A stretch of DNA of 64,000 nucleotides, taken from the NCBI GenBank assembly GCA_903874275.1, contig CAIQRS010000025.1, positions 1-64,000 of the forward strand, given 5' to 3'. A program made the position numbers and the translations under genes. Below the pieces are notes generated by a model. That model made no database searches. It saw only the letters and a program-made list of their open reading frames with translations, and was not told the DNA's origin. Origin of the DNA: an uncultured Anaeromyxobacter sp. Lineage in GTDB: Bacteria; Myxococcota; Myxococcia; Myxococcales; Anaeromyxobacteraceae. Positions 6,951-64,000 of the stretch are shown here, piece after piece. Every line of letters starts with the position of its first letter. Positions within the stretch are counted from its first letter, which is position 1.

Positions 6951-7030
6951 GGGGTGGGCAGTCAACCCCCCGATATCCACTCGCAATTCTTTACTCCCTC
7001 TCCCACACCGGCGTACAACGGTCCCTCGGT

Positions 7031-7495
7031 ATGATCGACCGGGTCCTCGTCGTCTGCGTCGGCAACATCTGCCGGAGCCCCATGGCGGAGGCGCTGCTCC
7101 GAGCCCGTCTCGGACGGCGCCCCCGCTTCACGGTCTCCTCGGCGGGAGTCTCTGCCCTCGTCGGCTTCGGGGCCGACCCGGCGGCGCTGGAGCTGATGCG
7201 GGAACGGAACATCGACATCTCCGGCCACCGGGCCCGGCAGGTCACGCCCGAGCTGGTCGCCGCCCACGACCTGGTGCTGGTCATGGAGCGGGGCCACGAG
7301 GCGGCGGTCCTCTCCATCGCCCCCCAGGCCCGCGGCAAGGTCCACTCCATCGGCAAGTTCGGCAGCTTCGATGTTCCCGACCCCTACCGCCAGCCCCGCG
7401 CCGCCTTCGAGGAGGCGCTCCGGCTGGTCGAGCGCGGGATCGACGACTACGAGCGGGCCTTCTGGCCGCCAGCATTGAGGAAGGTGCACGGATGA
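7031..7495 (+). CDS. wzb: low-molecular-weight protein-tyrosine phosphatase (Wzb-type)
   Basis: 154 residues, full family length. The P-loop CVGNICRS (C9 to S16, CX5RS) and the general-acid motif DPYR (D117) are intact. In capsule and exopolysaccharide systems this enzyme dephosphorylates the tyrosine tail of the Wzc kinase. It is first in a wzb-wza-wzc operon; its stop overlaps the wza ATG (ATGA at 7492-7495). No convincing promoter boxes are seen in the 80 nt upstream. Confidence 0.92.
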   Translation: MIDRVLVVCVGNICRSPMAEALLRARLGRRPRFTVSSAGVSALVGFGADPAALELMRERNIDISGHRARQVTPELVAAHDLVLVMERGHEAAVLSIAPQARGKVHSIGKFGSFDVPDPYRQPRAAFEEALRLVERGIDDYERAFWPPALRKVHG

Positions 7496-8613
7496 CGCAG
7501 AGGAACACCTTCGCCCTCTTGCTCGCCGCGTCGCTCAGCACGGCCTGCTCGCTCGCCCCCGGCGTCCACATGAAGGACTCGGAGGTCACCGACCGGGCCC
7601 ACGAGCAGCAGGGCAACGACGAGTTCCAGATCCAGGTGGTCTCCCCCTTCCTGATCCAGAGGTTCGCCAAGGAGTACAAGGCCGAGGTGGCGGCGCGGCA
7701 GCCGGACCCCAACGCGGCGCTGCTCAAGGACTACCAGTACAAGGTGGCCCCCCACGACATCCTCTCGGTCATTGTCTGGGATCACCCGGAGCTGACCTCC
7801 CCCACCGGCCAGTACCGCAGCCCCGAGGAGAACGGGCAACTCGTCTACGCGGACGGCACCATGTTCTACCCGTTCGTGGGGTACCTGCACGTGGCCGGAA
7901 AGACGGTCATCGAGATCCAGCGGGAGTTGACGGGCCGGCTCAAGCACGCCATCAAGGACCCGCAGGTCTCGGTGCGGGTGGCCAAGTTCTTGGGACGGCG
8001 CGTGGAGATGGCTGGCGAGGTGCGGAGCCCCCAGACGCTCTACCTCGACAACATTCCGCTGCGGATCTCCGACGCGCTGGTGAAGTGCGGCGGGTTCGTG
8101 AAGGACTCGAACCCCGCCGAGGTGACCCTCATCCGGGGCGGCAAGGCCACTCTCCTCAACCTCATGTCCTACTACGAGGAGGGCGATCTCAAGTCGAACT
8201 GGCTGCTCCTCGACGGCGACGCCGTCCACGTGGGAAGCATGTCGCTCAGCCAGGTGTTCGTCTTCGGAGAGGTGAAGAGCATGGGCACGCGCCCCATGTT
8301 CCGCGGACGCCTCTCGCTCGCGGCCGCCCTCGGGGACAGCAGCGGCTTCGACTACACCACCATGCGCCCCGCCGTATACGTGCTCCGCCAGGAGCCAAAC
8401 GGAAAGCCGGAGATCTTCCGCCTGGACGTGGCCGAGGCCGACTCGCTCATCCTGGCCGCCCAGTTCCCGCTCAAGCCGCGCGACGTGGTCTTCGTGGCCA
8501 CCAACGACCTCGCCCGCATGAACCGGGTCATCAGCCAGATCCTGCCGCTGGTGAACACCATCTGGCAGACCTGGAGCATGATCTACACGACGAAGACCCA
8601 GATCGGATTCTGA
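7492..8613 (+). CDS. wza: polysaccharide export lipoprotein (Wza-like)
   Basis: 373 residues. The N-terminus NTFALLLAASLSTAC is a lipoprotein signal with Cys19 as the predicted lipidation site. The export domain (YQYKVAPHDILSVIVWDHPE) and SLBB-type repeats (VEMAGEVRSPQTLYL; VFVFGEVKSMGTRPM) follow. It would form the outer-membrane channel for the polysaccharide. It is coupled to wzb by an ATGA overlap and followed by wzc after 7 nt. Confidence 0.92.
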   Translation: MTQRNTFALLLAASLSTACSLAPGVHMKDSEVTDRAHEQQGNDEFQIQVVSPFLIQRFAKEYKAEVAARQPDPNAALLKDYQYKVAPHDILSVIVWDHPELTSPTGQYRSPEENGQLVYADGTMFYPFVGYLHVAGKTVIEIQRELTGRLKHAIKDPQVSVRVAKFLGRRVEMAGEVRSPQTLYLDNIPLRISDALVKCGGFVKDSNPAEVTLIRGGKATLLNLMSYYEEGDLKSNWLLLDGDAVHVGSMSLSQVFVFGEVKSMGTRPMFRGRLSLAAALGDSSGFDYTTMRPAVYVLRQEPNGKPEIFRLDVAEADSLILAAQFPLKPRDVVFVATNDLARMNRVISQILPLVNTIWQTWSMIYTTKTQIGF

Positions 8614-8620
8614 CCCAGCC

Positions 8621-10957: not shown

Positions 10958-10974
10958 CCCCCGGCTCCGCCGCG

Positions 10975-11550
10975 CTACTCCGGCCTCATCCCCAGCACCA
11001 CCTGCAGGACGAACCGCTCGCCCTCCTCGGCGCCCGGCGCGTTCACCAGTTGCCCCCGCAGCGCCATCTGTGCGCAGGCCACCAGCGACTGGCGCATGTT
11101 CCCGGGCGACTGGAGGCGGCTCTGGCCGAGCTTCACCTTTCCCCCCTCGGGCTCCACGTCGAAGAGCAGGATGGCCTGCCCGGTGATCTGGGCCCCGTCC
11201 TTGCGCATCTCGTCGCCGAGCCGCACCTGCATCCTCCCGCAACGCCCGGAGACGATGGCCTCCAGGGCCGGCGCCTCCCGGGCCAGGTCCACCGGCGGCG
11301 GCGGGGCAGGGGGTGCGGGCACCGCCTTCGGAGCGGGGTTCTTGAACTCCTCGACCTCGCGCGTGGTGGCCCGGGGAGGCGGCGGGACGATCACCGACGG
11401 CCGCCTCTCCGGCTGCACGGAAGCCGCGGCTGGAGCGGGTTCCGGCCCCGGTGCGTCGGGGCCGCCATCGGTCATCCAGAGGATGACGCCCAGGCTCCCG
11501 GCGAGGAGAAGGGCGATGCCGAGGAGCGAGAGGAGGACGAAACGCTGCAC
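10975..11550 (-). CDS. membrane-anchored protein with AgmX/PglI-like C-terminal domain
   Basis: 191 residues from a GTG at 11550 with AGGA 8 nt upstream; a TTG at 11604 would add 18 residues. One membrane segment (RFVLLSLLGIALLLAGSLGV) is followed by a long Pro/Ala linker (PAPPAPPPP) and a C-terminal domain with paired cysteines and the pattern GQAILLFDVEPEGGKVKLGQ, then LVACAQMALRGQ. That layout matches the AgmX/PglI or TonB-like C-terminal domains common in myxobacteria. It converges on wzc with an 18-nt gap. The specific role is unknown. Confidence 0.55.
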   Translation of the reverse strand: MQRFVLLSLLGIALLLAGSLGVILWMTDGGPDAPGPEPAPAAASVQPERRPSVIVPPPPRATTREVEEFKNPAPKAVPAPPAPPPPVDLAREAPALEAIVSGRCGRMQVRLGDEMRKDGAQITGQAILLFDVEPEGGKVKLGQSRLQSPGNMRQSLVACAQMALRGQLVNAPGAEEGERFVLQVVLGMRPE

Positions 11551-11994
11551 CGGATCATCCTGCCACGGGGGGAGGGCTCGGTCGATCGCGCAATCCCGCG
11601 CCAATCATTGCCAAGATGAACACTTTCACATGGAGGCGAATGGCAATCGCGGGAATATTTGTGACCTTCAGTGACAACCCCCCTTCGGCGGCAGCCGCGT
11701 CCGCCCGGCCCGGATCGCCGGACCGATCGTCCGTCGTCGCTCCGGGCGGCGTACCCTCCCGGGATTCTTCGTATAAGTAAATGTAGGCATCGGCGCACAC
11801 GACCCGGGCCGTGTCCGTGATTCGAGGTACAAACCCCTTGATCCAGGACACGATTGGCCCGCAATGGTCCATTTACTCGTAGCTATCTTGGGTGACACCC
11901 GATCGCGCCGCGTCTCCTACATTGCCACTGCGGCAATTTGCCCCTACTCATTACCGACGATGCGTGCGGCATATCGCCGCGTGGGGAGAAACCG
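11551..11994. promoter_or_regulatory. divergent intergenic region upstream of the multicopper oxidase
   Basis: The region separates the minus-strand membrane protein from the plus-strand multicopper oxidase. It contains AT-rich stretches near 11640-11665 and 11768-11785. A perfect dyad ATTGCC-ACTGC-GGCAAT lies at 11921-11937, 57 nt before the oxidase ATG, and may be a regulator site. No clear -35/-10 pair is seen. Open frames here are short and overlap on the minus strand, so I call no gene. Confidence 0.35.
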
Positions 11995-14900
11995 ATGAGA
12001 GGGCAGCAGATGATCCGGAAGGCCATTCGTTCCAGCGTGACCGCGCTCGCGGTCGCTTTCTTCGCCGTCCCCCAGATTTCCCTCGCGCAGGCCGCGAACG
12101 ACCAGGTCCAGGTCGATCCGCTGATGCAGAAGGCGGCGCGCATCAAGAACATGAACTCGCAGATGCGCATCACCCAGGCGCAGCGGGTCGAGGCCGCCAA
12201 GGAGCAGAAGGCCAACGTGGAGCGCGTGAAGGCCGCCAAGGCCGCCGCCCGCGCCAAGGGCATCGAGGTTCCGGAGATCGGAATCCGCGGCGTGAAGGCC
12301 GAGAGGATGTCCCCGAGCATCAAGACCATGCGCGCCGGCGCGCCGCGGTCCACCTCGGCGTCGGCGCTGCCCTCGCCGCAGCTGAACGGGCTGACCGTCG
12401 GACCGCTCGACACGCCCGACTACTTCACGACGGCCAACTGGGCCTTCAGCCCCATGCTGCGCAAGTTCGTGGACACGCTGCCGGGTCTCGGCTCGGGCGC
12501 CCCGAACAATATCGGGAACTACGTCCCGCTCGCGCATCCGGACACGCGCACCTATCCGGGCTCCGACTACTACGAGATCTCCCTCAAGCTCTACGAGCAC
12601 CGGTTCCACAGCGACCTGCCGGCCACCAAGGTGCGCGGCTACGTCCAGACCAACCTGGGCACCAACGCCGGCGGCACCCTCAACAACGTGACCCCCGATC
12701 CGATCAACTGGCTCGGACCGGTCATCGTGGCCGTGAAGGACCGCCCCATCCGCATCAAGTTCAAGAACGAGCTCCCCGGCGCCGCCTCCGGCGGCAACCT
12801 GGCGGTTCCGGTGGACGAGTCGATCCAGGGCTCCGGCCGCGGCGCCATGTGGCCCGACGGCACCGAGTGCAACCCCTCGCCCATGGCCATTGGCGACCCC
12901 GGCCTGCCCTGCGCCGTGTATCCCCAGACCCGCGCCGCCATCCACCTGCACGGCGGCCGCACCCCGTGGATCAGCGACGGCACCCCGTTCCAGTGGATCC
13001 TGCCGCTCGCCGACTACGACGACGGGGCGAACCCCTACAAGAAGGGCGTCAGCCTCTACAACGTGCCGGACATGCCGGTTCCGGCCACCAATGACGAGAC
13101 CACCTACTACTGGTCGAACCAGCAGAGCTCGCGCCTCATGTTCTACCACGACCACGCCTGGGGCATCACCCGCCTGAACGTGCTCGCGGGCGAGGCGGCC
13201 GGCCTGCTCATCAACGACAGGACCGAGAACGACCTCATCGCCGAGGGCATCCTCCCCGACCTCGGCATCCCGCTCGTCATCCAGGACCGCACCTTCGTGG
13301 ACGCGAACGTGAACATCCGCACGGGCAAGACCTTCGTCCGCGACACCGACCCCACCTGGAACTGGGGCACGGGCGCCGTGGACGACACCGGCGTCGTCGC
13401 CCCGGTCACCGGCGACTTCTGGATCCCGCACGTGTACGTGCCGGCCCAGAACCCCTACACCCCGAGCGGCGTGAACGCCTTCGGCCGCTGGGTCTACGGC
13501 CCCTGGTTCTTCCCGCCCACCGCGAACCTCATCTACCCGCCGACCGCGAACCCGTACTTCGACGCGAACTGCGGCGATCCCGATCCGGCGGTGCTGGCCT
13601 TCTGCACCACGCCGAACCAGCCGCCGGTCATCCCGGGCACGCCCACCCCGTCGGTGGGCGCCGAGACCTTCTTCGACACCGCCATGGTGAACGGGCAGGC
13701 CTTCCCGGTGCTCGACCTGCAGCCCAAGCCCTACCGCTTCCGCATCCTGAACGCGGCCAACGACCGCTTCCAGAACCTGAACATCTACAAGGCCGACCCG
13801 CTGCAGGTCACCCACCCGCACTGGGGTGGGCTGCCGGTCGCGCAGAACACCGAGGTGGAGATGTGCGCCATCCCGGGCGCGGCGGGAATCCCGGGGACGG
13901 TCTGCTGGGACCAGAACCTCTACCCGAACTGGCCGAACGACGGCCGCACGGAAGGCGTTCCGAACCCCACCAAGCTCGGACCTGACATCATCTACCTGGG
14001 CACCGAGGGCGGCTTCCTCCCGAAGCCGGTGGTCCTCACGGGCCAGCCCATCACCTTCGTCACCGACCCGACGGCCTTCAACGTCGGCAACGTGAAGGAC
14101 TTCAACCTCTTCATGGGCCCGGCCGAGCGCGCCGACGTCATCATCGACTTCTCGAACTTTGGCGGCGAGGAGCTCATCCTCTACAACGACGCCCCGGCGG
14201 CAGTGCCGGCGTTCGACCCCCGGTTCGACTACATCACCGGCGCCCCCGACCTCTCGGCGAACGGCGGCTACGGCCGCGTCCCGCCCTGGAACGAGGCCGA
14301 TCCGGCCGCACAGCTCGAAGGCCCGCAGGCCGGCTACGGCCCGAACACCCGCACGGTCATGAAGTTCCGCATCGCCGCGGGCACCGGCCCCGGCTACGAC
14401 CTGGCCGCGCTCAACGCCCGCTGGCTGCCGGGTCTCACCCCGGCCGGCCGCCGCACCCCGCTGGGCGTCTTCGAGGAGAGCCAGGACCAGATCATCGTCG
14501 GCCAGTCGGCCGGATACGACGGCGTCTACACCAGCAACCCGAGCTTCCCGTCGGTGTGGCCGGCCTGGGGCATCTCGCGCATCGAGGACAACTCCCTCAT
14601 GTTCGAGACGGTCTCGGGAACCATCGTGACCTTCCCCATGGAGCCGAAGGCGATGCACGACGAGATGGGCGCCTCCTTTGACAAGGAGTACGCCCGCATG
14701 TCCACCAACCTCGGCACGCAGCTCAACCCGCCCAAGACCAACGCGGCCAACATGACGCCGTACATGTACACCGACCCGGCCACCGAGTTCATGAACGCGG
14801 CCGCGACGCCGGTCTCGGCGGTGCTCGGCGACGGCACGCAGCTGTGGAAGATCAGCCACAACGGCGTGGACATGCACCCCATCCACTTCCACATCTTCGA

Positions 14901-17900
14901 CGTGCAGGTCATCAACCGCGTCGGCTGGGACGGCCAGATCCGCCTTCCCGCCGAGCAGGAGTACGGCTGGAAGGACACCGTCCGCATCGCGCCCCTCGAG
15001 GACACGATCGTGGCGATGCGCCCCTGGACGCCGCCCATCCCGTTCAACGTGCCGTTCAGCCTCCGTGCGCTGAACCCGGCCATCCCCATCGGCTCGGGCT
15101 ACGGGTTCACCAACATCGACCCCATCACGCAGGCGCCGCTCGTCCCGCCCACCACCAACGCCTACACCAGCTTCGCCTGGGAGTACGTGTGGCACTGCCA
15201 CATCCTCAGCCACGAAGAGAACGACATGATGCGCCCCATCGTCCTCAACGTGCCCTCGGTCATCCCGCCCGCCATCGCCCCCATCTCGGTCGTCGCCACG
15301 GCCGGCACCAACACGGTCAGCTGGACCGACCCGACGCCGGTGAACTACCTCACCCAGACCGGGTTCAAGAACGCCAACAATGACAACGAGATCGGGTTCC
15401 GCATCGAGCGCGCCACCAGCGTGAACTCGGGCTGGGAGGTGCGCGGGACGGCACGCGCCAACGCCACGTCCTGGGCGGAAGCGGTGGCGAACCCCACCCC
15501 GTACTACCGGTACCGCGTGGTCGCGTTCAACGAGGCCGGAACCTCCACCTCGCCGTTCGCCCAGATCGGCACGGCGCCCGTGGTGACCCGCCTCACCAGC
15601 GTCAGCCTGGCGATCTCGAACGCCGGCACCCAGGGCGCAGGCATCGTGGTGACCGCCAACTCCAACACCTGGACGAAGAACCTCACCAGCCTGGTCAGCC
15701 CCAACTTCCGGGCGGCCGGCTCGGGCGGCAATCCCGCCGCGTACGAGTACCAGTTCTCGATGCGGCTCGGAGCGGCCCAGTACGGGGTCGTCCAGAGCTG
15801 GTCGCCGTCCGCCAACTGGGTCATGCCCCTCGGCACGGCCCCCGGCGTCTACACGGTGCAGGTCGAGGCCCGCAACGGCCCGACGATCGGTCCGCGCACG
15901 CGCACCCTGATCTTGACGGTTGCGGTCCCGGCCGCCGTCACCGGGCTCGCCCTCAACCCCAGCATCGTCAGCCCGGCCACGGTGGGCAACGCCGTGAACT
16001 TCACGGCGGTCGCCACCGGCGGCGCAGCGACGAAGCAGTACCAGTACTCGCTGGCCACCGGCCAGGGCGTCGGCCTCACCTACGTGGTCCAGTCGGCCTG
16101 GAGCGCTGCCACCACGTGGCTCCTCCCGGCCACGACCCCGGTCGGTCTCTACACGGTCATGGCCGAGGTCCGCACCAACACGGGCTCCGTTGACCGCACG
16201 GCCACGGTTGCCTACGAGATCGTCAACCCGCCGGCGACCGGCGTGACGATCGTGGCCGAGAAGGCGAGCCCGGGCACTGCCCCGGTGAGCTTCCTCGCCA
16301 CGGGCGAGGGGCCGGCCCCGCTCACCACCGGGACGGGCGGCGGCTACTACTTCAAGTTCACGGTCTCGAACAACGGCGGCTCGACCTTCACCTACGCGAC
16401 CCGGCCGTACGGGACGAGCCGGGTGTACACGCTGCCGCTCGGCACGCCTCCTGGCAGCTACATCGTGAGGGTGCAGACGGCCACCAGGGCCATCGAGCCG
16501 GCCACCTTCGACGGAGCCGCCCAGATCACGTACGTGGTGAACACGTTCCCCACGGTCACCCTGACCTCCGCCCAGAACCCGTCGGCCAAGGGCGCAACGG
16601 TGCTGTTCACGGCCGTCGGCACGGGCCCGGGGACGCACCAGTACCGGTTCTCGCTGGACGGCACCCCGGTCTCGGTCCCGGAATGGGGCCCGACGAACAC
16701 CTGGACGATGCCCGGCACAACGCTGGGCGGAAGCCACGCGGTCCTCGTGGAGATCTCCGACGCGCCGCCCACGGCACAGTCGTCGGCGACCGTGACGCAG
16801 TTCGTGACCTTCCCGCCGGCGACGCTCGTCACCCTCACTCCGTCGGTGGCCAGCCCGCAGATCGTCGGTACGCCGGTCACCCTGACGGCGGCCGGCTCGG
16901 GTTCCGATCCGGGCGCGGTGTACTCGTACCGGTTCAGGGTTGACGGGGCGGATGCCACCGGCTGGCAGACCGAGCCGACGTTCCTCCTGCCCACCTCGAC
17001 GGTCGGCACCTACTCGCTGACGGTGGACACCACCACCGTGGCCAGCCCGACCCTAGCGACGCCGGCCGACGTGACGTCCACGCCTGCGCTGTCGTACGTG
17101 ATCCGTGACTGGGCGCCGCCTACGAGCGTCCAGTTCCAGACCATCAGCCCGGCCAGTCCGTCACCGGCCGGCACGGCAGTCACCTTCGTGGCGGTGGCCC
17201 TCGGCTCCACCGACGTCGCCGCTCCCTACCAGTACCGCTTCTCGAGGGACGGTGGCACCAACTGGACGGCATGGAGCGCCACGAGCTCCTACTCGCTCGA
17301 CGCTGCAGCCGCGGCGGCGACGTACACGATCGCCGTGCAGGCGACGACCAGCTCGCTCACGCCTCCCACTCCGACGGTCGCCAACTCGGTGTCGCACGTG
17401 CTGTACGCGACTCCGGCGGTCACCCTCGTGGCCAACCCCACGAGCGGGCGGCTGTGGGGAACCTCGGTGACGTTCACCGCGTCGGGCAGTGGCGGCATGC
17501 CGCCCGTCACGAGCCAGTACCGGTTCTCGCTAAACGGTGTCGTGGACCAGGGCTGGTCCGCCTCGCCGACATACATCACCACCGCGCTGCCGGTGCGGAG
17601 CAATACCGTGCTGGTCGAGTACTCGACGACAGCAACTCCGGCAGTAGCGGCGTCGGCGAGCACGACGTTCGTCATCACCGGGTACCCGGCGGCGACGGCG
17701 GTGACCATCGACAACGGCAGCCCGGCGAGCCCGCAGAAGCCGGGAACGGCGATTACGTTCACTGCCTCCGGGGTGGTCCCGGCTGGACTGCCCACAGGGG
17801 CGGTCAAGTACCGGTTCAAGGTTGACAGCGGGACGGCGGGGGCGTGGAGCAGCACGACGCCTACGTTCGCGCTGCCCCTGGCCACCGCGGCAGGCAACCA

Positions 17901-18324
17901 CACGGTCACCGTCGACGTGACGACGGCGAACAACCCGACGGCTGGAACCAACCCCGACATCTCTGCAACGTCGGCGACGTACGTGCTCGCCAACCCGACG
18001 ACGGCAACCGGAGTCAGAGCGACCTTCTCGCCTGCATCTCCGCGGGTCGTCAACACCCCTATCACCCTGACGCTCACTGGATCGGGTTCAACGATCGGTG
18101 TCGGGGGCCCGGTGTCGCCGCAGTCGGCGTACCAGTTCCAGGTCGGGACCTACCGTGGCCCGGGATATGCGTGGGTCTGGAGTGCCTGGGTCAGCGGTCC
18201 CACCTATACCTGGACGCCGGCAACTGCGGGCGCCTGGACCGTCGTCGTGCGCGCCAGGACCAATCCGGCATCCACCCCGTACGAGGCGCTCAGTCCGTAC
18301 TACGGGTACACTGTAAGCCCCTAG
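11995..18324 (+). CDS. giant secreted multicopper oxidase with FN3 and about nine Ig-like repeats
   Basis: 2109 residues from the ATG at 11995 (GGGGAG 7 nt upstream). A signal peptide ends near AQA33. The oxidase part (about 100-1095) has all four copper signatures: HLHGG (H317, H319), HDHAWG (H385, H387), HPIHFH (H961, H964, H966) and HCHILSHEENDMM (H1067, C1068, H1069, H1073, axial M1078), so T1 and T2/T3 sites look complete. The order resembles CotA/bilirubin-oxidase-like laccases but with long insertions. An FN3-like domain (about 1100-1190) and nine repeats of 90-120 residues follow, with YRFSLDG/W-like motifs (starts near 15570, 15931, 16231, 16546, 16813, 17111, 17410, 17684, 17996). 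There is no PEP-CTERM or LPxTG. A strong hairpin follows. Substrate (Mn(II), Fe(II), phenolics) cannot be read from sequence. Confidence 0.93.
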   Translation: MRGQQMIRKAIRSSVTALAVAFFAVPQISLAQAANDQVQVDPLMQKAARIKNMNSQMRITQAQRVEAAKEQKANVERVKAAKAAARAKGIEVPEIGIRGVKAERMSPSIKTMRAGAPRSTSASALPSPQLNGLTVGPLDTPDYFTTANWAFSPMLRKFVDTLPGLGSGAPNNIGNYVPLAHPDTRTYPGSDYYEISLKLYEHRFHSDLPATKVRGYVQTNLGTNAGGTLNNVTPDPINWLGPVIVAVKDRPIRIKFKNELPGAASGGNLAVPVDESIQGSGRGAMWPDGTECNPSPMAIGDPGLPCAVYPQTRAAIHLHGGRTPWISDGTPFQWILPLADYDDGANPYKKGVSLYNVPDMPVPATNDETTYYWSNQQSSRLMFYHDHAWGITRLNVLAGEAAGLLINDRTENDLIAEGILPDLGIPLVIQDRTFVDANVNIRTGKTFVRDTDPTWNWGTGAVDDTGVVAPVTGDFWIPHVYVPAQNPYTPSGVNAFGRWVYGPWFFPPTANLIYPPTANPYFDANCGDPDPAVLAFCTTPNQPPVIPGTPTPSVGAETFFDTAMVNGQAFPVLDLQPKPYRFRILNAANDRFQNLNIYKADPLQVTHPHWGGLPVAQNTEVEMCAIPGAAGIPGTVCWDQNLYPNWPNDGRTEGVPNPTKLGPDIIYLGTEGGFLPKPVVLTGQPITFVTDPTAFNVGNVKDFNLFMGPAERADVIIDFSNFGGEELILYNDAPAAVPAFDPRFDYITGAPDLSANGGYGRVPPWNEADPAAQLEGPQAGYGPNTRTVMKFRIAAGTGPGYDLAALNARWLPGLTPAGRRTPLGVFEESQDQIIVGQSAGYDGVYTSNPSFPSVWPAWGISRIEDNSLMFETVSGTIVTFPMEPKAMHDEMGASFDKEYARMSTNLGTQLNPPKTNAANMTPYMYTDPATEFMNAAATPVSAVLGDGTQLWKISHNGVDMHPIHFHIFDVQVINRVGWDGQIRLPAEQEYGWKDTVRIAPLEDTIVAMRPWTPPIPFNVPFSLRALNPAIPIGSGYGFTNIDPITQAPLVPPTTNAYTSFAWEYVWHCHILSHEENDMMRPIVLNVPSVIPPAIAPISVVATAGTNTVSWTDPTPVNYLTQTGFKNANNDNEIGFRIERATSVNSGWEVRGTARANATSWAEAVANPTPYYRYRVVAFNEAGTSTSPFAQIGTAPVVTRLTSVSLAISNAGTQGAGIVVTANSNTWTKNLTSLVSPNFRAAGSGGNPAAYEYQFSMRLGAAQYGVVQSWSPSANWVMPLGTAPGVYTVQVEARNGPTIGPRTRTLILTVAVPAAVTGLALNPSIVSPATVGNAVNFTAVATGGAATKQYQYSLATGQGVGLTYVVQSAWSAATTWLLPATTPVGLYTVMAEVRTNTGSVDRTATVAYEIVNPPATGVTIVAEKASPGTAPVSFLATGEGPAPLTTGTGGGYYFKFTVSNNGGSTFTYATRPYGTSRVYTLPLGTPPGSYIVRVQTATRAIEPATFDGAAQITYVVNTFPTVTLTSAQNPSAKGATVLFTAVGTGPGTHQYRFSLDGTPVSVPEWGPTNTWTMPGTTLGGSHAVLVEISDAPPTAQSSATVTQFVTFPPATLVTLTPSVASPQIVGTPVTLTAAGSGSDPGAVYSYRFRVDGADATGWQTEPTFLLPTSTVGTYSLTVDTTTVASPTLATPADVTSTPALSYVIRDWAPPTSVQFQTISPASPSPAGTAVTFVAVALGSTDVAAPYQYRFSRDGGTNWTAWSATSSYSLDAAAAAATYTIAVQATTSSLTPPTPTVANSVSHVLYATPAVTLVANPTSGRLWGTSVTFTASGSGGMPPVTSQYRFSLNGVVDQGWSASPTYITTALPVRSNTVLVEYSTTATPAVAASASTTFVITGYPAATAVTIDNGSPASPQKPGTAITFTASGVVPAGLPTGAVKYRFKVDSGTAGAWSSTTPTFALPLATAAGNHTVTVDVTTANNPTAGTNPDISATSATYVLANPTTATGVRATFSPASPRVVNTPITLTLTGSGSTIGVGGPVSPQSAYQFQVGTYRGPGYAWVWSAWVSGPTYTWTPATAGAWTVVVRARTNPASTPYEALSPYYGYTVSP

Positions 18325-56249: not shown

Positions 56250-56372
56250 CCGTCTCTCGTCCACTGCCCCCGTCCACGTCCCTATCGGGTGACACCCGCG
56301 CAAGGGATCTGGCCCCCGTCCCCCCCCGTGCCATACTCTTCCCTCAACCCCGGGGGGGGAGGTCGCACACAC

Positions 56373-57857
56373 TTGCAGACGGTCGTCGTCGCATTTTTCA
56401 TCTCGCTCACCGTCGCGCTCCTGCTCACCCCCCTCGTCCGTGGTGCGGCCGTCCGCTTCGGCGTGCTCGACCACGCCCTCACCTCCCGGAAGATCCACGG
56501 CAGGCCCGTCCCCCGCCTGGGCGGGGTGGCCATCGTGGTCGCCTTCTTCACCCCCCTCGTCGCCCTCTTCTTCTTCGACACCGGGGTGGGGCGGCTCCTC
56601 TGGGGCCAGCCGCAGCGGGCCCTGGCCCTCATCCTGGGCGGCCTCGCCATCGCGGCGCTGGGCACCTTCGACGACCTGAAGGGCTCCGGCGCGCGCATCA
56701 AGTTCTCCGTCCAACTCCTGGTCGCGGCACTCATGTGGTTCGCCGATTACCGGGCCGACACCATCGCCACCCCCTTCGGCACCTTCGGCCTGGGGGTCTT
56801 CGGCTTCCCGCTCACCGTCCTCTGGATCGTGGGGGTCACGAACGCCCTCAACCTCATCGACGGGCTCGACGGGCTCGCCACCGGCATCGCGCTCGCCGCC
56901 ACGGGGACCATCTTCTGGGTGGCCTTGAACAACGGCCGCCCGCTCATGGCCCTCTTCATGGCCTGCCTGGCGGGCGGGCTGCTCGGCTTCCTGCGCTACA
57001 ACTTCCACCCGGCGTCGATCTTCATGGGGGACTCGGGGAGCCTCTTCGTGGGGTTCATCCTGGCCACCACGGCGCTCGAGACCCACGAGAAGACCACCAC
57101 GGCGGTCTCCCTGCTCGTCCCCATCGTGGCGCTGGGGCTCCCCATCGGCGACACGCTGCTCGCCATGACCCGGCGGATGGTCCGTGGGCAGCCGATCTTC
57201 TCCTCCGACGCGGGCCACATCCACCACCGGCTCATGGCCCGCGGCCTCTCCCACCGGGCCACCGTGCTCGCCCTCTACGGCATCGCCATCGTGCTGGGCG
57301 GGGTGGCGGTAGCGCTCTTCCACTCCGACGCCGAGCAGACCATCGCCTACGCGGGAGCGGTCGTCGCCATCGCGGTCATGCTGCTCGTGACCGCGGGGTA
57401 CGTGCCGTTCAACCGGACGCGGCAGCTCTTCTCCGACCGCAAGAACAACCTGGCCATGCGGGCGACGGTGCGGCGGGCGGGCGAGCTGCTCCGCCACGCC
57501 GAGGACCCGCAGGGCATCTGGAACGTGGTCCAGGGGGCCGTGCCTGCCCTTCAGGCGAGTTGCGCGGCGCTCAAGGTGGTGGCGCGCAACGGAACCGTGA
57601 AGACCTGCGAGTTCTCCTGGGGGTTCGACGAGGCGCCGGTGACGGTGCTGCGGGTCCGCTTCAGCCTGCTCGGGGAGAGGCCGGACGACGGGGGGCTCGA
57701 GCTGGGGTTCACGGACGGCCGGCGCACCGTGGACCGGGACACGGAGATCGCGGTGGAGTTGCTCTGCGAGCACGTGTACGCGGCGGTGCAGAGGATCGCC
57801 GCGAAGCACGAGGCGGAGACGACGGGGAGCAGGAAGCTCTTGCAGTTCAGGAGGTAG
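56373..57857 (+). CDS. WecA/MraY-family initiating glycosyl-1-phosphate transferase with C-terminal extension
   Basis: 494 residues from a TTG at 56373 with GGAGGT 10 nt upstream; an ATG at 56289 would add an unlikely Pro-rich leader. About ten membrane segments. Conserved sites: GTFDDLKG (DD motif), NALNLIDGLDGLATG, FMGDSGSLFVGF and AGHIHHRLMARG. It should start the repeat unit on undecaprenyl phosphate. The last ~130 residues (TRQLFSDRKNNLAMRATVRR on) are soluble and absent from standard WecA; they may bind a regulator. Confidence 0.9.
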   Translation: MQTVVVAFFISLTVALLLTPLVRGAAVRFGVLDHALTSRKIHGRPVPRLGGVAIVVAFFTPLVALFFFDTGVGRLLWGQPQRALALILGGLAIAALGTFDDLKGSGARIKFSVQLLVAALMWFADYRADTIATPFGTFGLGVFGFPLTVLWIVGVTNALNLIDGLDGLATGIALAATGTIFWVALNNGRPLMALFMACLAGGLLGFLRYNFHPASIFMGDSGSLFVGFILATTALETHEKTTTAVSLLVPIVALGLPIGDTLLAMTRRMVRGQPIFSSDAGHIHHRLMARGLSHRATVLALYGIAIVLGGVAVALFHSDAEQTIAYAGAVVAIAVMLLVTAGYVPFNRTRQLFSDRKNNLAMRATVRRAGELLRHAEDPQGIWNVVQGAVPALQASCAALKVVARNGTVKTCEFSWGFDEAPVTVLRVRFSLLGERPDDGGLELGFTDGRRTVDRDTEIAVELLCEHVYAAVQRIAAKHEAETTGSRKLLQFRR

Positions 57858-57944: not shown

Positions 57945-58913
57945 TTGCGCTTCCGGTTTCACCACCTCCACGTCGAGCTGAGAGGCGCCGGTCCGGCGCT
58001 GGACGCCGCCCGCACCCTTTTTGGCGGATTCCCCTCGATCGACGCATCCGGGGAGGCCGACCTCGTCGTGAACCTTCGCCCGGCCGCGGCGACGCCGCGC
58101 CTTCCTTCACCGTCCGACTTCTTCCACGGGACGATCGACTGCCACGCAGTTGGGGACGATGTGATCCTCTCCGATGGATTCTCCCGATCCCGCGTCCACG
58201 GAGGCGGACGACTCGTCGAAATCGATGTGGCCGACGAGTCCCTGGGCGATCTCCACATGTTCGCGCAGGTCTTCCTCCTCATCTCGATCGTCCTGGCGCT
58301 CCGGTGGAGGCACCTCTTCCACGTACATGCCGGGGCCCTCGTCTCGCCGAGCGGCGCGGGGATCCTCGTGACAGGCACGGCCGGGGCGGGCAAGAGCACG
58401 CTCTCCTTGGCCCTGCTGGAGGCTGGATGCTCCTACCTGGGCGACGACGCGGTGTTCCTCACGGTCCGCGACGACGGACCTGTTGTCCTCTCCCTCCCGC
58501 GGCCCTTCCACGTCGCGCCCCAGACCATTGCCGCCTTCCCGCGGATCGCCCCCTTCGTCGGGTCGATCCTGCCCAACGGGAAGAAGTGGAACCTCGACGC
58601 CCGCGCGACCTGGCCTGGCCGGGAGCGGGAGGAGATCGTCGCGCCCGACGTGCTCCTCCTCCCGGAGGTGGCCGATCGCGAAGAGACGGAGGTGCAGCCA
58701 CTCGGAGCATCGGTGGGGCTGGGCGCACTCCTCGAGTCGAGCACCTACGTCGTCGTCGACGACCTGCCGGCCCGCAGCGCCCACCTGGATGCCCTGCGAC
58801 GACTGGCCGACGGAGCAAAGGCCTACCGGGTCAAACTCGGGGCCGACCTCCTCCATGCTCCGGTGCGGACCGCGAACCGGATCCTCTCGGCCGTCGGGGC
58901 CGAAACGGGATAG
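57945..58913 (+). CDS. HPr kinase-like (HprK-related) P-loop kinase
   Basis: 322 residues from a TTG at 57945. The C-terminal kinase core has LRWRHLFHVHAGALVSPSGA, Walker A GTAGAGKST (144-152, K150) and CSYLGDDAVFLTV, the pattern of HprK-related kinases, including those linked to RiPP clusters (lasso peptide modifying kinases, PqqD-associated kinases). It lacks the HPr-kinase N-terminal domain, and no HPr gene is near. The next gene, a radical SAM enzyme, starts 42 nt downstream after a small hairpin (58920-58934). Confidence 0.8.
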   Translation: MRFRFHHLHVELRGAGPALDAARTLFGGFPSIDASGEADLVVNLRPAAATPRLPSPSDFFHGTIDCHAVGDDVILSDGFSRSRVHGGGRLVEIDVADESLGDLHMFAQVFLLISIVLALRWRHLFHVHAGALVSPSGAGILVTGTAGAGKSTLSLALLEAGCSYLGDDAVFLTVRDDGPVVLSLPRPFHVAPQTIAAFPRIAPFVGSILPNGKKWNLDARATWPGREREEIVAPDVLLLPEVADREETEVQPLGASVGLGALLESSTYVVVDDLPARSAHLDALRRLADGAKAYRVKLGADLLHAPVRTANRILSAVGAETG

Positions 58914-58955
58914 CATCCTCGGCTCGCCGAGCCGCACCTCCCTGGGGGAACCCCG

Positions 58956-59972
58956 TTGTCCACCTGGATCGCCTTCCACGTCACCGAACGCTGCGGGCTC
59001 ACCTGCCTGCACTGTCTGCGCGACCCCGGGAAGGTTCCCTCCGAGCTCCCCCTCGACCTCGTGGAGCGGCTCCTGGACGAGGCGCGCGCGCTCCATGGCA
59101 TCCGGCATGCCGGCTTCACGGGCGGTGACCCGCTGCTCTGGCCGCATCTCCAGGGCGCGATCGACGCCGTCGTGAAGCGCTCCTTCACCTGGCACCTGGT
59201 CTCGAGCGGGATGGGGTTCGAGCGGCTGCTCGCCATGCTCGACGCGGATCCGGCTCGCCAGGCGGCGCTGCGGACCGTGGACTTCTCGCTGGACGGTGCG
59301 ACGGAGGCGAGCCACGACGCCATCCGGGGGAAGGGGAGCTGGCGGGCGCTCATGACGGCGGTGGCGGGCTGCACGGCTCGCGGGATCCCCTTCGAGCTGC
59401 AGGCCACCCTGCACGCGCGCAACCAGGCCGAGCTGGAGGCCATCGGGCTGCTCGCTGGAGAGCTGGGAGCAAAGAAGGTCGGGCTGGCGATGATGAGCGC
59501 GACGGGGAATCCCGGGGACCGGGAGCTCTACCTGGCGCCGGATGCCTGGGACCGGATCGCCGACCGCATCGAGAGGCTCTCCACGCTTCTCACCACGACG
59601 GTGGTCTCGTTCGACGGTTTCCGGCGCGGCGACCGGTTCCACGTCTGCGAGCCCTTCCGGAGCGTCGTGCTCCACGTGACGCCGGAGGGGAAGCTGAACC
59701 TGTGCTGCAACCACTCCGGGATCGCGGGGCGTGACGAGGACGTCGTGGCCGACCTGCGGACCACGAGCCTCGTCGATGCGCACCGGGCCCTCCTCGGATT
59801 GATCCATCGGCTGGAGCGCGAGCGGCTCGACGAGATCGCCGCTTCACCCGGCGCGTCTCCCGGCTGGGACGACTTCCCGTGCAACCGTTGCCTGAAGCGT
59901 CTCGGAAAGCCTTACTGGATCGAGGGCGGGAGCGCAGGGCCCCGGCCGGGAGGGGCGGCCGGCGGTGGGTGA
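58956..59972 (+). CDS. radical SAM protein with C-terminal auxiliary cysteines (copy 1)
   Basis: 338 residues from a TTG at 58956. The radical SAM motif is C13-x3-C17-x2-C20 (RCGLTCLHC), then HAGFTGGDPLLW (GGDP in the place of GGE). The C-terminal part has C231, C250-C251 (LNLCCNHSG), C309 and C312 (PCNRC), which look like ligands for a SPASM/twitch-type auxiliary Fe-S cluster. It overlaps the acyltransferase gene by 8 nt. A close paralogue begins at 63137. Substrate unknown; peptide modification is inferred from neighbours. Confidence 0.85.
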   Translation: MSTWIAFHVTERCGLTCLHCLRDPGKVPSELPLDLVERLLDEARALHGIRHAGFTGGDPLLWPHLQGAIDAVVKRSFTWHLVSSGMGFERLLAMLDADPARQAALRTVDFSLDGATEASHDAIRGKGSWRALMTAVAGCTARGIPFELQATLHARNQAELEAIGLLAGELGAKKVGLAMMSATGNPGDRELYLAPDAWDRIADRIERLSTLLTTTVVSFDGFRRGDRFHVCEPFRSVVLHVTPEGKLNLCCNHSGIAGRDEDVVADLRTTSLVDAHRALLGLIHRLERERLDEIAASPGASPGWDDFPCNRCLKRLGKPYWIEGGSAGPRPGGAAGGG

Positions 59973-61065
59973 GGGGGCGCCGCGCGCGCCCGTGCACTTC
60001 CCCGGCCTGAACGAGATCCGGGGCATCACGGCGCTCGCCATCGTCGTCTCGCACGTGAACGCCAGCATGGGGCTCTTCGGCCTCGAGTCGCGGGCGTACG
60101 GCATGGTCGGGATGGCCGGATTCCGGGTGTGGGTCTTCTTCGCGCTGAGCGGATTCCTCAACACCTACTTCCTGCTCGCCGAGAAGGAGCGATCCGGAAG
60201 CGTCGATCTCCGCCGGTTCCACGTTCGCCGCGCCCTGCGGATCTGGCCGGTCTACTTCCTGGCCATCGGTGTCGCGGTGTTGCTTGCCGTCGTCGGGGTC
60301 GAGCCGATCCCGGAACCGGTTCCGATCACGCTGGCCAGCTACGGACTCATGGTTCCGAACCTGGCCTATGCCCTGGGACTGAAATGGTGGCCGGTGGCCC
60401 AGCTCTGGGCGGTCGGCGTCCTGGAGCAGTTCTCCTGGTTCTGGCCAGGGGTCGTGAAGCGGAGCGGGAACGTCCTCCGCGCGGCTCTGGTCGTGGTCGT
60501 CGTCTACCTCGTCGTGAAGGCGCTGGCCTGGAGGTCGGGTTCGAGCGAGGCCTATCAACTCGTCCGCATGGCTGGCTTCGACGCCATGGCGCTGGGAGCG
60601 ATCGGGGCGGTGCTGGTCCGGAGGCAGAGTCCTGCCCTTCGCCTGGTATTCTCGAAGCCGGTCCAGGTCGCTGCCTGGGCCTTCGTCGCCTGGGGGATCC
60701 TGGTCGGGCCGCTTCACCTGGCGTCGGTGGTGGATGCCGAGATCCACGCACTGGTCGTGACCGTCCTGATCCTGAACGTCGCGTGCAACCCTCGGGCGAT
60801 CGTCACCATCCGGAGCCGGGTTCTCGACCGACTGGGGCGGGTTTCGTACGAACTCTATGGGTTTCACATGATCGTCGTGTTCCTCGTCGCGCGGGGCGGA
60901 GGGGGGCTCTTCGGAAAACTGGGCGGGGGGGGGCTTGCCCACCTCGCTGTCCAGGCCGCGTGCCTCGTGGCGTCGGTGCTCGTGGCCGCGGCGGCCCGGC
61001 GCCTCCTCGCGGGGCCAATCGGCAGGATCCGGGCGCGGCTGGAGCGCGTTCCGCTGCCGACTTGA
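59965..61065 (+). CDS. membrane acyltransferase (acyltransferase 3 / OafA type)
   Basis: 366 residues from a GTG at 59965. About ten membrane segments. GLNEIRGITALAIVVSHVNA (HxN variant of the usual H), FFALSGFLNTYFLLAEKE and LRRFHVRRALRIWPVYFLAI are the AT3 family marks. Such enzymes O-acylate surface glycans or small molecules. Coupled by overlap to the radical SAM gene, so its target may be that system's product or the polysaccharide. Confidence 0.85.
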   Translation: MGEGAPRAPVHFPGLNEIRGITALAIVVSHVNASMGLFGLESRAYGMVGMAGFRVWVFFALSGFLNTYFLLAEKERSGSVDLRRFHVRRALRIWPVYFLAIGVAVLLAVVGVEPIPEPVPITLASYGLMVPNLAYALGLKWWPVAQLWAVGVLEQFSWFWPGVVKRSGNVLRAALVVVVVYLVVKALAWRSGSSEAYQLVRMAGFDAMALGAIGAVLVRRQSPALRLVFSKPVQVAAWAFVAWGILVGPLHLASVVDAEIHALVVTVLILNVACNPRAIVTIRSRVLDRLGRVSYELYGFHMIVVFLVARGGGGLFGKLGGGGLAHLAVQAACLVASVLVAAAARRLLAGPIGRIRARLERVPLPT

Positions 61066-61262
61066 TCTGGCGAGAGCAAGATCGAGCAGTCCACTCCAGT
61101 TTGCCCTGTGGTCCGCGACCGACCTGCCCCGACAGGGCCGAATCGAACTTCGTGGAACTGCCGGGTGGTGTGCTAATGGTTGACTCCGGGGTGCCTCTGC
61201 TTTTCACAGGGCAGTGGGCCCAATTGAACAGGGTCGGCTGTCGGCCGAAGGGGTGTGCAGAG

Positions 61263-61445
61263 ATGAACGACGCAGCGAAGAAGCCTTCCGAAGGGCAGCC
61301 CGATTCCCGCTCGACCGGGTGTCGTCCAGCCTACGAGCCGCCGCGACTCGAGAAGCGCCGCGCCCTGGTCCGGGCCACGCTGTTCTCGGGGCAGTCGTCC
61401 CAGACGAACGCGGGTGGCTTGATCGCCAACCAAGCCGGGACCTAG
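61263..61445 (+). CDS. 60-residue peptide with YxxPxL leader motif, candidate RiPP precursor
   Basis: 60 residues from the ATG at 61263 (AAGGGG 10 nt upstream). The N-terminal half is charged and polar and ends in AYEPPRLEKRRALVRAT; YEPPRL fits the YxxPxL motif by which RiPP leaders bind their recognition elements. The C-terminal 21 residues (LFSGQSSQTNAGGLIANQAG then T) are rich in Ser, Gly, Asn, Gln and Thr. The one Cys is in the leader part. It lies between an acyltransferase and a lipoprotein gene and between two radical SAM genes. No strict match to a known precursor class is seen. Confidence 0.5.
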   Translation: MNDAAKKPSEGQPDSRSTGCRPAYEPPRLEKRRALVRATLFSGQSSQTNAGGLIANQAGT

Positions 61446-61494
61446 CCCTCCAGGCTTGGCCGTCGCACCGTTCACTCAGCATCGGAGTCTTGCC

Positions 61495-63069
61495 ATGAAG
61501 AAGATCGCACTTTCCTTGATGGTCGTTGCGCTCGCTGGATGTGGGGCGCAGAAGCTTTCCGACCCAGCGAACGAGCCGGTTCCCCCCGGCTTTGCTCTCC
61601 TCGGCACGTTCGAGGGCGAGGTTGATTCCGCGAAGGGCATCTTCAACGTCCGGATAAAGCCGAACGAGGCCGGGACGGCCGCGGGAATGCGGAGCGTGAG
61701 GATCACTCCGGGGATTTCCACGGTGAGCATCGCGAACGACGCGGCATGCCCAGAGATCGACCCAATAACGGAATTGCCCGTCTGTAGTTGGAACAACGCG
61801 GCGCGAGCAGAGTGCAACGGGGAAAACGGGACGGGTGGCTACGTCAAGATCACGAGTAACTACGCCGCAACCACGATACCGGGTGCGCTCTACGCAAAGA
61901 TCACGGCGGTGAGCGCCGCCGGCGTGACGCCCTGCAATAGTGCTCCAGCGCCGTCCGGGATGACGGATCTTGCAGGGCTTTGGTCGTACGGGACCATCGG
62001 CCCAGGGCTCTACACCTCGAAGGCATGGAGTTTTTCCAATGCCTCCACGACCAACTTCCAATTCGTCGGCGCGATCTATGGAGTCCTTGCCGTGGAATCA
62101 ACAAGTCCGGTTCCCCAAACCACCGTTTCGGGTCTCGGAACAAAAATTACGTTTGGGATCAACAACACGTCGACAGTCGCTACGATGAACTCCAGCTTTG
62201 TTGAGGAGTCTGCGACGGTTGGAGGGGGCGCGAGAGGGACTGTGGTCAATTCGGTGGCAGGCGATCTTGTAAACTCCCGAATCTGGTACGCAACTACTGG
62301 AGGTGCCGATTCCCCTTACCCGAACTACGTTGGATACATCGGGAGCGATCTGACCGGTGGTTCTTATGCGACCGTGGAAGGTACCTCCCAGAGTAACCTC
62401 CTCTTCAGAAACGTGGTTCCGGACCCGCACGTGGCCGCAAGGGCGTGGTTCATCCAGAACACCACGGCTGGGAGTACAACATATCGTCTCCGTTCGGCCA
62501 GTGGGACGACGGTCGCCGTCGATGCAACGAACCTCTTGATCAGTACCACACTAAGCCCTTCGTCTATGGCCATCGATTCGGGTTCGGGCAAGCGCCTCGT
62601 ACTTGTGAACCCAGGCGGAAACAGCACCGCCACTGGAACGTTTTGGTGGGTGAATACCACCACTCCCACGGTTGTAAACGCCTATGCGATTACTCCGATG
62701 GGCAATTGTCGCAGGCCCAGAGTCATCGTGAATAGTGGAGCCGGCACTTTCCTGTACGGTACCGAATGGGGTTCCGTATGCTCATTTGCGGCATCGAACG
62801 GCGCGATCACGAAGATCTGGGACGCAGGGATGGGCGCGGTGACGGGAATTGCCTTCGATGGCAACGGTGATTTCTGGGTCTCGACGGCGGCTGGAATCGT
62901 GGCTCGATACAATCAGTTGGATGTCGATCATGGCATTGACTATTCGACCAGCGTGCCCGAAGGGACGCCGTCGGCGCTTGTGGCAGCGGATGGTTATCTA
63001 TGGACGATGATCCAAGACCTCATCACCGAGGGGACCCCCATCCTGGGCACCGTACGCGTCCAGCCCTGA
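61495..63069 (+). CDS. secreted lipoprotein, possible beta-propeller
   Basis: 524 residues from the ATG at 61495. MKKIALSLMVVALAGCGAQK is a lipoprotein signal with Cys16 at the lipobox LAGC. The rest is Thr/Ser/Gly-rich beta structure with weakly repeated blades (SSMAIDSGSGKRLVLVNPGG; VTGIAFDGNGDFWVSTAAGI; PSALVAADGYLWTMI), like Vgb/SMP-type propellers. It starts 49 nt after the small peptide gene. Function unknown. GC is lower than in the surrounding genes. Confidence 0.75.
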   Translation: MKKIALSLMVVALAGCGAQKLSDPANEPVPPGFALLGTFEGEVDSAKGIFNVRIKPNEAGTAAGMRSVRITPGISTVSIANDAACPEIDPITELPVCSWNNAARAECNGENGTGGYVKITSNYAATTIPGALYAKITAVSAAGVTPCNSAPAPSGMTDLAGLWSYGTIGPGLYTSKAWSFSNASTTNFQFVGAIYGVLAVESTSPVPQTTVSGLGTKITFGINNTSTVATMNSSFVEESATVGGGARGTVVNSVAGDLVNSRIWYATTGGADSPYPNYVGYIGSDLTGGSYATVEGTSQSNLLFRNVVPDPHVAARAWFIQNTTAGSTTYRLRSASGTTVAVDATNLLISTTLSPSSMAIDSGSGKRLVLVNPGGNSTATGTFWWVNTTTPTVVNAYAITPMGNCRRPRVIVNSGAGTFLYGTEWGSVCSFAASNGAITKIWDAGMGAVTGIAFDGNGDFWVSTAAGIVARYNQLDVDHGIDYSTSVPEGTPSALVAADGYLWTMIQDLITEGTPILGTVRVQP

Positions 63070-63085
63070 CGGTTGCCGAAGGAGT

Positions 63086-63103
63086 GGCGGGCCCGGTCCC
63101 GCC
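63086..63103 (+). terminator. hairpin after the lipoprotein gene
   Basis: GGCGGG-CCCGGT-CCCGCC, 6-bp stem and 6-nt loop, 16 nt past the stop; no T-run follows. It could be a weak terminator or processing site before the second radical SAM gene. Confidence 0.3.
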
Positions 63104-63136
63104 CATGCCGCGCCTCTGAGTTCTTGAGGCATATCC

Positions 63137-64000
63137 ATGTCCCGCTCGGTCGTCTTCCACGTCACCGACCGCTGCGGACTCGGGTGCCGCCACTGCCTCC
63201 GTGATCCCGGGAGCCACGCCACCGACCTCCCGACGTCGGTCGTCGCCCGCGTTCTCGACGAGGTCTCCCGGGTCCACGGCATCCGCCACGCCGGGTTCAC
63301 CGGCGGCGATCCGCTCCTCTGGCCCGGCCTCGCCGAGGCCCTCGACGAGGTGGTCCGGCGCGGGTTCACCTGGCACCTCGTGACAAGCGGGCAGGGCTTC
63401 CAACGCCTCACCGACCTGCTCGACGAGCAATCCGCCCGGGGCACGGGGCTGAAGAGCATCGACGTTTCGCTCGATGGAGCCCGCGAGGGAACCCACGACA
63501 GCATCCGCGGCGAAGGCGCCTGGCGCGGCGCCATGGCCGCCATCGCGGCTTGCACCGCGCGCTCCATCCCGTTCACCATCGCCTGCACGGTGAACCGCCT
63601 GAACGTGGGAGAGCTCGAGGAGCTGGGGTTGCTCGCTGCGCAGCTCGGCGCCGTCGCGCTCGGCTTCGCGATGACCCAGGCCACGGGCACCCCTGAGGAC
63701 GAGCAGATGTACCTCTCGCCCCAGGAACTGGACCGGGTCTTCCATCGGGCCGAGAGGCTCTCGACCCTCCTCCACATCCCGGTCACGGTTGGCGAAGGCT
63801 TCCGCCGCCCGTCTCGGTTCCACGTGTGCGGGTCGTTCGCGGGCGACGTCCTCCACGTCACACCCCGGGGCGAGCTCAACCTTTGCTGCAACCACTCGGG
63901 TGTCCCGGGCGGGAACGAGGACGTCATGGCCGACCTCTCACGGGAGAACGTCGTCGACGGGCACCGCCGGTTGCTCGATCTCGTGGAGAGGCTGCAGCGT
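63137..64000 (+). CDS. radical SAM protein (copy 2), cut by the window end
   Basis: 288 codons from the ATG at 63137, no stop in the window. Same architecture as the protein at 58956: C13-x3-C17-x2-C20 (RCGLGCRHC), HAGFTGGDPLLWPGL, then RFHVCGSF and LNLCCNHSG. The two align along the whole visible length without large gaps, so they are paralogues of one system. The C-terminal CxxC pair expected from copy 1 would lie past the window edge. Confidence 0.85.
   Translation, partial: MSRSVVFHVTDRCGLGCRHCLRDPGSHATDLPTSVVARVLDEVSRVHGIRHAGFTGGDPLLWPGLAEALDEVVRRGFTWHLVTSGQGFQRLTDLLDEQSARGTGLKSIDVSLDGAREGTHDSIRGEGAWRGAMAAIAACTARSIPFTIACTVNRLNVGELEELGLLAAQLGAVALGFAMTQATGTPEDEQMYLSPQELDRVFHRAERLSTLLHIPVTVGEGFRRPSRFHVCGSFAGDVLHVTPRGELNLCCNHSGVPGGNEDVMADLSRENVVDGHRRLLDLVERLQR

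Follow-up and report, generated by a model that had tools for sequence, protein, structure and literature searches.

A putative cyclase-less peptide maturation cassette with a radical SAM enzyme and paired lipoproteins in an Anaeromyxobacter genome

The genome of an uncultured Anaeromyxobacter sp. carries a gene cassette that probably encodes a RiPP-type peptide maturation pathway. The predicted pathway stands close to those of the linear polyphosphorylated peptides (LPP; Nat Commun 2026, PMC13381572) and of phosphorylated lasso peptides, has no cyclase and includes a radical SAM maturase in addition. Established from the sequence are the gene content, intact catalytic residues, a conserved precursor peptide, the exclusive co-occurrence of the components and the pairing of peptide genes with lipoprotein genes. 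The cassette begins within the first 64000 bases (hereafter the window) of a contig of 72970 bases and continues beyond them.

Results

Gene content of the cassettes

All cassette genes of the window locus (57945-64147) have intact reading frames (Table 1), and the HprK-like kinase, the two radical SAM (rSAM) proteins, the 60-aa peptide with YEPPRL and the lipoprotein listed by a first-pass annotation of the window are all open and in place. That annotation also counted a membrane acyltransferase as part of the system. Among the cassettes compared, the acyltransferase-3 gene is present only at the window locus and does not accompany the other components elsewhere. As a core component it was rejected; because no copy occurs in the second cassette of the same genome (L020), in that of Anaeromyxobacter oryzae Red232 (L022) or at the other loci compared, it is probably a local gene outside the system. 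Two rSAM genes are likewise no defining trait, as one is the rule in the other cassettes compared. Immediately upstream of the window cassette lies a capsule/exopolysaccharide locus (8621-57857) with Wzc-like, flippase, Wzy-like ligase, sugar enzyme, glycosyltransferase and carbamoyltransferase genes. The window also holds an ORF of ~2128 codons with a signal-like N-terminus (11938-18324).

No PqqD gene had been seen inside the window; a PqqD/RRE domain, a B2 peptidase and an NTP_transf_5 protein were found farther on the contig (L009, contig positions 57001-72970); they had been missed because the window edge hid them. The search past position 64000 for PqqD/RRE, protease and transporter genes, which the annotation had suggested, thus yielded the RRE and the leader protease 4.4-5.1 kb beyond the window end, whereas the cassettes showed no exporter of their own. 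An MsbA-like ABC exporter that adjoins L020 was considered as a cassette member and is probably not one, since it also occurs at the syntenic site of G003 and G001, two genomes from which the cassette is missing at that place.

Table 1. Genes of the window cassette, its continuation on the same contig (L009) and the second cassette of the same genome (L020)
Locus	Feature	Position	Strand	Remarks
Window	Glycos_transf_4 (WecA/MraY-like)	56289..57857	+	PF00953 E 1e-38; end gene of the capsule/exopolysaccharide locus; context, not core
Window	HprK-like kinase	57945..58913	+	TTG start; P-loop GTAGAGKST; Hpr_kinase_C E 1e-7, just below the curated cut-off
Window	rSAM-1 (radical SAM)	58956..59972	+	TTG start; Radical_SAM E 1e-14; twitch-like C-terminus
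Window	Acyltransferase-3 membrane protein	59965..61065	+	PF01757 E 3e-18
Window	Precursor peptide, 60 aa	61263..61445	+	ATG 61263 to TAG 61445, read from the DNA
Window	Lipoprotein	61495..63069	+	ATG start; lipobox LAGC; conserved N-terminal domain, variable C-terminal part; begins 49 nt after the peptide gene
Window	rSAM-2 (radical SAM)	63137..64147	+	Cut by the window at 64000; 59% identical to rSAM-1
L009	NTP_transf_5 protein	about 64069-65256		Beyond the window
L009	GT87-like membrane protein			After NTP_transf_5
L009	PD40 propeller lipoprotein			After the GT87-like membrane protein
L009	B2-RRE fusion	from 68395	opposite	N-terminal Transglut_core3 (lasso B2 leader peptidase family), C-terminal PqqD/RRE
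L020	Propeller	6611-7807
L020	Peptide	7920-8096
L020	Lipoprotein	8153-9598
L020	rSAM	9636-10658
L020	B2-RRE	10655-11353
L020	NTP_transf_5	11350-12435
L020	HprK	12440-13393

Three cassettes have the same parts: the window locus with its continuation, L020, which is compact and complete and lies elsewhere in the window's genome (G000), and L022 of A. oryzae Red232 (G022), where lipoprotein, peptide, propeller, rSAM, B2-RRE, NTP_transf_5 and HprK follow each other in a single run. G001 has its cassette split across contig ends (L023, L024). The genome of uncultured Anaeromyxobacter bin-406 (G003) contains peptide, rSAM, RRE, NTP_transf_5 and kinase; a single operon there comprises propeller, NTP_transf_5 and HprK, the rSAM and RRE genes lie on other contigs, and of the B2-RRE fusion only the PqqD part was detected. 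On the rSAM contig of G003 (L021, G003:C113, 6358-7182) a stand-alone PqqD/RRE gene adjoins a signal-peptidase-I-like (SpI-like) gene of archaeal type (TIGR02228 49.5 bits, cut-off 51.85). Such a pair near an rSAM gene was seen in G003 only; it resembles the RRE and SpI pair of the LPPs, in this case within a myxobacterium, and might stand in for the absent B2.

Enzymes

The P-loop, H126/H128, K150, D167 and D168 of the HprK-like kinase are invariant among four homologues, and lasso kinases have been shown to depend on residues of these types (PMC9266682). The B2 domain scores 53.9 bits with NF033537 (lasso_biosyn_B2; cut-off 33) and E 1e-16 with PF13471, its residues C68, H102 and D117 are invariant, and the PqqD-like RRE fused to its C-terminus is above the cut-off of PF05402.

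Alignment confirmed the motifs shared by rSAM-1 and rSAM-2, namely C13-x3-C17-x2-C20, GGDP and the C-terminal cysteines C231, C250, C251, C309 and C312, which are invariant. The arrangement C231-x13-G-x4-C250 together with C309-x2-C312 fits a single predicted auxiliary-cluster (twitch-like) domain. The closest solved sequences are the peptide maturases PqqE (E 6e-17) and SkfB, and the closest folds BlsE, SkfB, PqqE and SuiB, the latter from a model of moderate confidence (pLDDT 70.5) whose weakness at the cluster sites prevents conclusions on the active site. A viperin-type defence enzyme was considered and rejected (NF038283 29 vs 180 bits; PADLOC pVip E 6e-9 only).

Precursor peptides and paired lipoproteins

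The four genomes with the peptide hold 7, 5, 2 and 1 copies, 15 in total, of 54-63 aa. The window precursor has a leader with YEPPRLEKRRALVRAT and a predicted core, from L/F onward, of (L)FSGQSSQTNAGGLIANQAGT; that of A. oryzae includes YEPPRIVKKRSVSRATLFSGSGAGPDPRGGLVGSG. All 15 match Y-x-P-P-R-[I/L]-x-K-[K/R]-R-x-[V/L]-x-R-A-T-L-F-[S/T]-G, and 11 of them were retrieved blind by a profile. For these 20 codons dN averages 0.095 and dS 0.78 (dN/dS ~0.12; the pairs are not independent); the number of homologues and this ratio led us to reject a chance ORF, and as judged from the sequences the family is under purifying selection. Residue 19 of the motif is Thr in 11 peptides and Ser in four. Because it is always one of these two and Ser is encoded by codons of both families (TCG and AGC), the sequences indicate selection for a hydroxyl at this position. 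The predicted cores begin with Phe (or Leu), and no precursor residue clearly diagnostic of one rSAM chemistry is evident.

Nearly all of the 15 peptide genes adjoin a gene for a lipoprotein of one family. Typically the peptide gene comes first and the lipoprotein gene follows, the spacing being commonly 49-56 nt and a GAAGGAGAAT ribosome site being conserved; exceptions are C109, where the lipoprotein precedes the peptide, and A. oryzae, with a lipoprotein before and a propeller after it. Across the alignment the lipoproteins have a common domain of ~180 residues at the N-terminus, where Cys147 is invariant and the lipobox Cys16 nearly so, and their C-terminal parts vary (Vgb-lyase propeller, RCC1-like repeats by inspection, others). 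Some lipoprotein genes without a visible peptide start at or near contig ends, and for some of these the peptide may be hidden at the contig edge.

Distribution, gain and loss

Profile searches across 145 genomes of the order placed the components in the same four genomes: the rSAM family (E <= 1e-90; next match 6e-26), the peptide (E <= 4e-18; next best anywhere 7e-4), the HprK family and the B2-PqqD fusion, the last with its PqqD part only in G003. The lipoprotein domain occurs in these four and one more. Apart from the acyltransferase, the co-conservation that the first-pass annotation had proposed as a check is thus borne out, and no relative that keeps the enzymes without the peptide was found among the 145 genomes. 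The proposal of a peptide-modification system with the 60-aa peptide as the likely substrate of the kinase and rSAM enzymes is thereby upheld as a prediction, peptide and enzymes co-occurring. Three of the four genomes belong to one genus, and A. oryzae is the sole positive among about ten genomes of its own; the four represent at least two lineages and not four independent events. A scan of the GTDB collection for the rSAM returned only two Anaeromyxobacter loci, with exact short patterns that may miss wider relatives. Since the search covered mainly the phylum and went beyond it to a limited extent, the distribution given here is a minimum.

L020 is flanked by citrate synthase on one side and an ABC transporter/aconitase pair on the other. 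At the equivalent site of G003 (L087) a WecA-like gene, homologous to the window's Glycos_transf_4 gene, precedes a lone PqqD gene. G001 has a scar there, in which part of a PD40 propeller is joined to an HprK with an internal deletion (L118, G001:C179, 3358-4002). Because both genomes lack the cassette at this site and G001 retains a deletion scar, the cassette seems to be gained and lost as a unit. A phylum-wide profile search found a distant rSAM of 39% identity in another Myxococcota family (L089, G194:C89, 1-7846). On its contig, which breaks off inside the rSAM gene, there are also an HprK-like gene and a large lipoprotein whose N-terminus shows weak similarity, but a matching peptide was not seen.

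Discussion

The first-pass annotation knew no class that this combination of genes would match. Close relatives exist in the lasso/LPP-type RiPP machinery. Our literature searches found no published description of this gene set. The LPP pathway works without a cyclase: its RRE recognises YxxP leaders, its HprK-like kinase places several phosphates on core Ser3 and its SpI-like peptidase takes off the leader, with an NTP transferase as a further conserved component (PMC13381572). The cassettes described here share with it the RRE, the HprK-like kinase, the NTP transferase, the YxxPx[V/I/L] and T-x-x-S spacing and the lack of a macrolactam cyclase. Against the LPP precursor motif YxxPxVLxHQxIxFETxxS, in which S19 is the proven HprK phosphosite (PMC13381572), all 15 peptides match the spacing of Y1, P4, hydrophobic 6, hydrophobic 12, T16 and S/T19, with H9Q10 and F14E15 unmatched. 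Capsule genes adjoin the window cassette as they do LPP and paeninodin clusters. Unlike the present cassettes, LPP clusters are described from Bacillota and have a discrete RRE, an MsbA-like exporter, variable cores and an SpI-type leader peptidase, which is here replaced by B2; the radical SAM enzyme and the paired lipoprotein family are described for the cassettes only.

From the parallels with LPPs (PMC13381572) and with pseudomycoidin (PMC9266682) we infer the phosphorylation site, the role of NTP_transf_5, the cleavage site and the radical SAM change of the core in the following pathway, in which the surface role of the product is likewise conjectural. The Y-x-P-P-R-[I/L] leader motif would bring the precursor to the PqqD/RRE domain of the B2-RRE fusion. 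The kinase would then phosphorylate the hydroxyl of residue 19, three places past the invariant Thr in T-L-F-[S/T]-G. NTP_transf_5 may add a nucleotidyl or sugar group to this phosphate; in pseudomycoidin a nucleotidyltransferase homologue is required for hexose addition to the phosphate (PMC9266682). Thr at residue 19 of most precursors is a concern, because the LPP kinase LppK did not phosphorylate a Ser-to-Thr mutant (PMC13381572). The radical SAM enzyme is predicted to make a carbon-centred change in the conserved T-L-F-[S/T]-G...G-G core, standing in for the lasso cyclase. The B2 cysteine protease would cut after T16-L17 by the lasso B2 rule (Thr at -2) or after T16 by the LPP rule, and the released product would be a linear modified core of ~13-20 residues of the F-[S/T]-G-S-G-P-D-x-G-G-V-I type. 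Most likely, the mature peptide would act at the cell surface with the lipoprotein encoded beside its precursor.

The radical SAM enzyme might instead work on another substrate, for example a polysaccharide or the donor of NTP_transf_5, within an otherwise LPP-like pathway. All parts except the rSAM fit LPP logic, the capsule neighbour included, and the LPP enzyme LppN is suspected of needing an unidentified partner or donor (PMC13381572). We consider this unlikely, as the rSAM gene shares an operon with the peptide and B2-RRE genes in L020 and L022, is found in exactly the peptide-bearing genomes and has the peptide maturase PqqE as its best match of solved structure.

B2, RRE, HprK-like kinase and a nucleotidyltransferase-like enzyme also occur together in the phosphorylated lasso peptides paeninodin and pseudomycoidin (PMC9266682), so that the cassettes could be lasso-peptide clusters whose macrolactam cyclase has disappeared or operates from a distant locus of the genome. 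A true lasso cluster, L106 of another Myxococcota genome (G194:C83, 4595-7950), has B2, an Asn-synthase cyclase and an HprK-like kinase; its precursor, ...YEPPRLDCHGPIIAVTRGGGLFFGAD, has Gly1 and Asp at the ring position, and its YEPPRL leader is identical to that of the window peptide. This second reading is nonetheless quite improbable. No Asn_synthase gene lies near any cassette, and the four matches in the genome, all of them short and with low scores, lie on four other contigs. The predicted cores have no Gly1 and no consistent ring Asp/Glu, and do not conform to the lasso core rule (Gly/Ala/Ser/Cys first, Asp/Glu at position 7-9); in four of the 15, the window's included, Asp/Glu is absent from positions 7-9. 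Moreover, the kinase target in paeninodin and pseudomycoidin is the C-terminal Ser, whereas residue 19 is predicted here, and the cassettes differ by the C-terminal fusion of the RRE to B2 and by the added radical SAM enzyme. A further locus of the window's own genome (L081, G000:C10, about 9912-11881) combines a B2 protein and a distinct HprK-like kinase with a small ORF for a W-x-A-P-V-I...T peptide and has no cyclase; it is possibly another cyclase-less lasso/LPP-like cluster.

A kinase-like protein, PqqD and radical SAM enzymes are also combined in the SynChlorMet cassette (models TIGR04248-TIGR04251: HprK-like ScmC, PqqD-like ScmD, radical SAMs ScmE and ScmF), whose layout includes a small peptide. 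To our knowledge B2, NTP_transf_5 and the lipoprotein do not occur there, and the scores stay far below the cut-offs (ScmF 58 vs 400, ScmE 47 vs 400, ScmC 21 vs 125), with no ScmD match of the fusion. A reading in which the radical SAM/PqqD pair excises a small redox cofactor from the peptide is very improbable: an rSAM with auxiliary cluster, an RRE and a small precursor recall PQQ and mycofactocin (PqqE-PqqD, MftC-MftB), and the PqqE and mycofactocin maturase models match at E 1e-16 to 1e-18, though far under their cut-offs (TIGR02109 61.6 vs 381, TIGR03962 64.7 vs 265), but here as many as seven nearly identical precursors are encoded at unlinked loci, most of them together with a lipoprotein, a kinase and a lasso-type B2 protease are also present, the precursors have no conserved Glu-Tyr or Val-Tyr pair and no downstream cofactor genes were seen.

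Returning to a cyclase-less RiPP-type pathway with a radical SAM maturase, it would join lasso/LPP-type leader recognition, kinase and B2 protease to radical SAM chemistry, a pairing absent from the literature that we found. The roles of LPPs and paeninodin have been called unknown, and no pairing of peptide and lipoprotein genes is reported for either (PMC13381572); the pairing seen here is therefore a concrete functional clue. We tentatively suggest, as one possibility, that a near-constant peptide, radical SAM-modified and phosphate-decorated, is made from many genomic copies, each with a different partner, and might be used in common by these modular surface lipoproteins as a prosthetic group, an anchor or an activator. 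With 15 natural precursor variants, a small operon and a named isolate, A. oryzae Red232, the radical SAM reaction is directly testable, and the role of NTP_transf_5 and the biology of LPP-like peptides are likewise approachable through the system of this strain.
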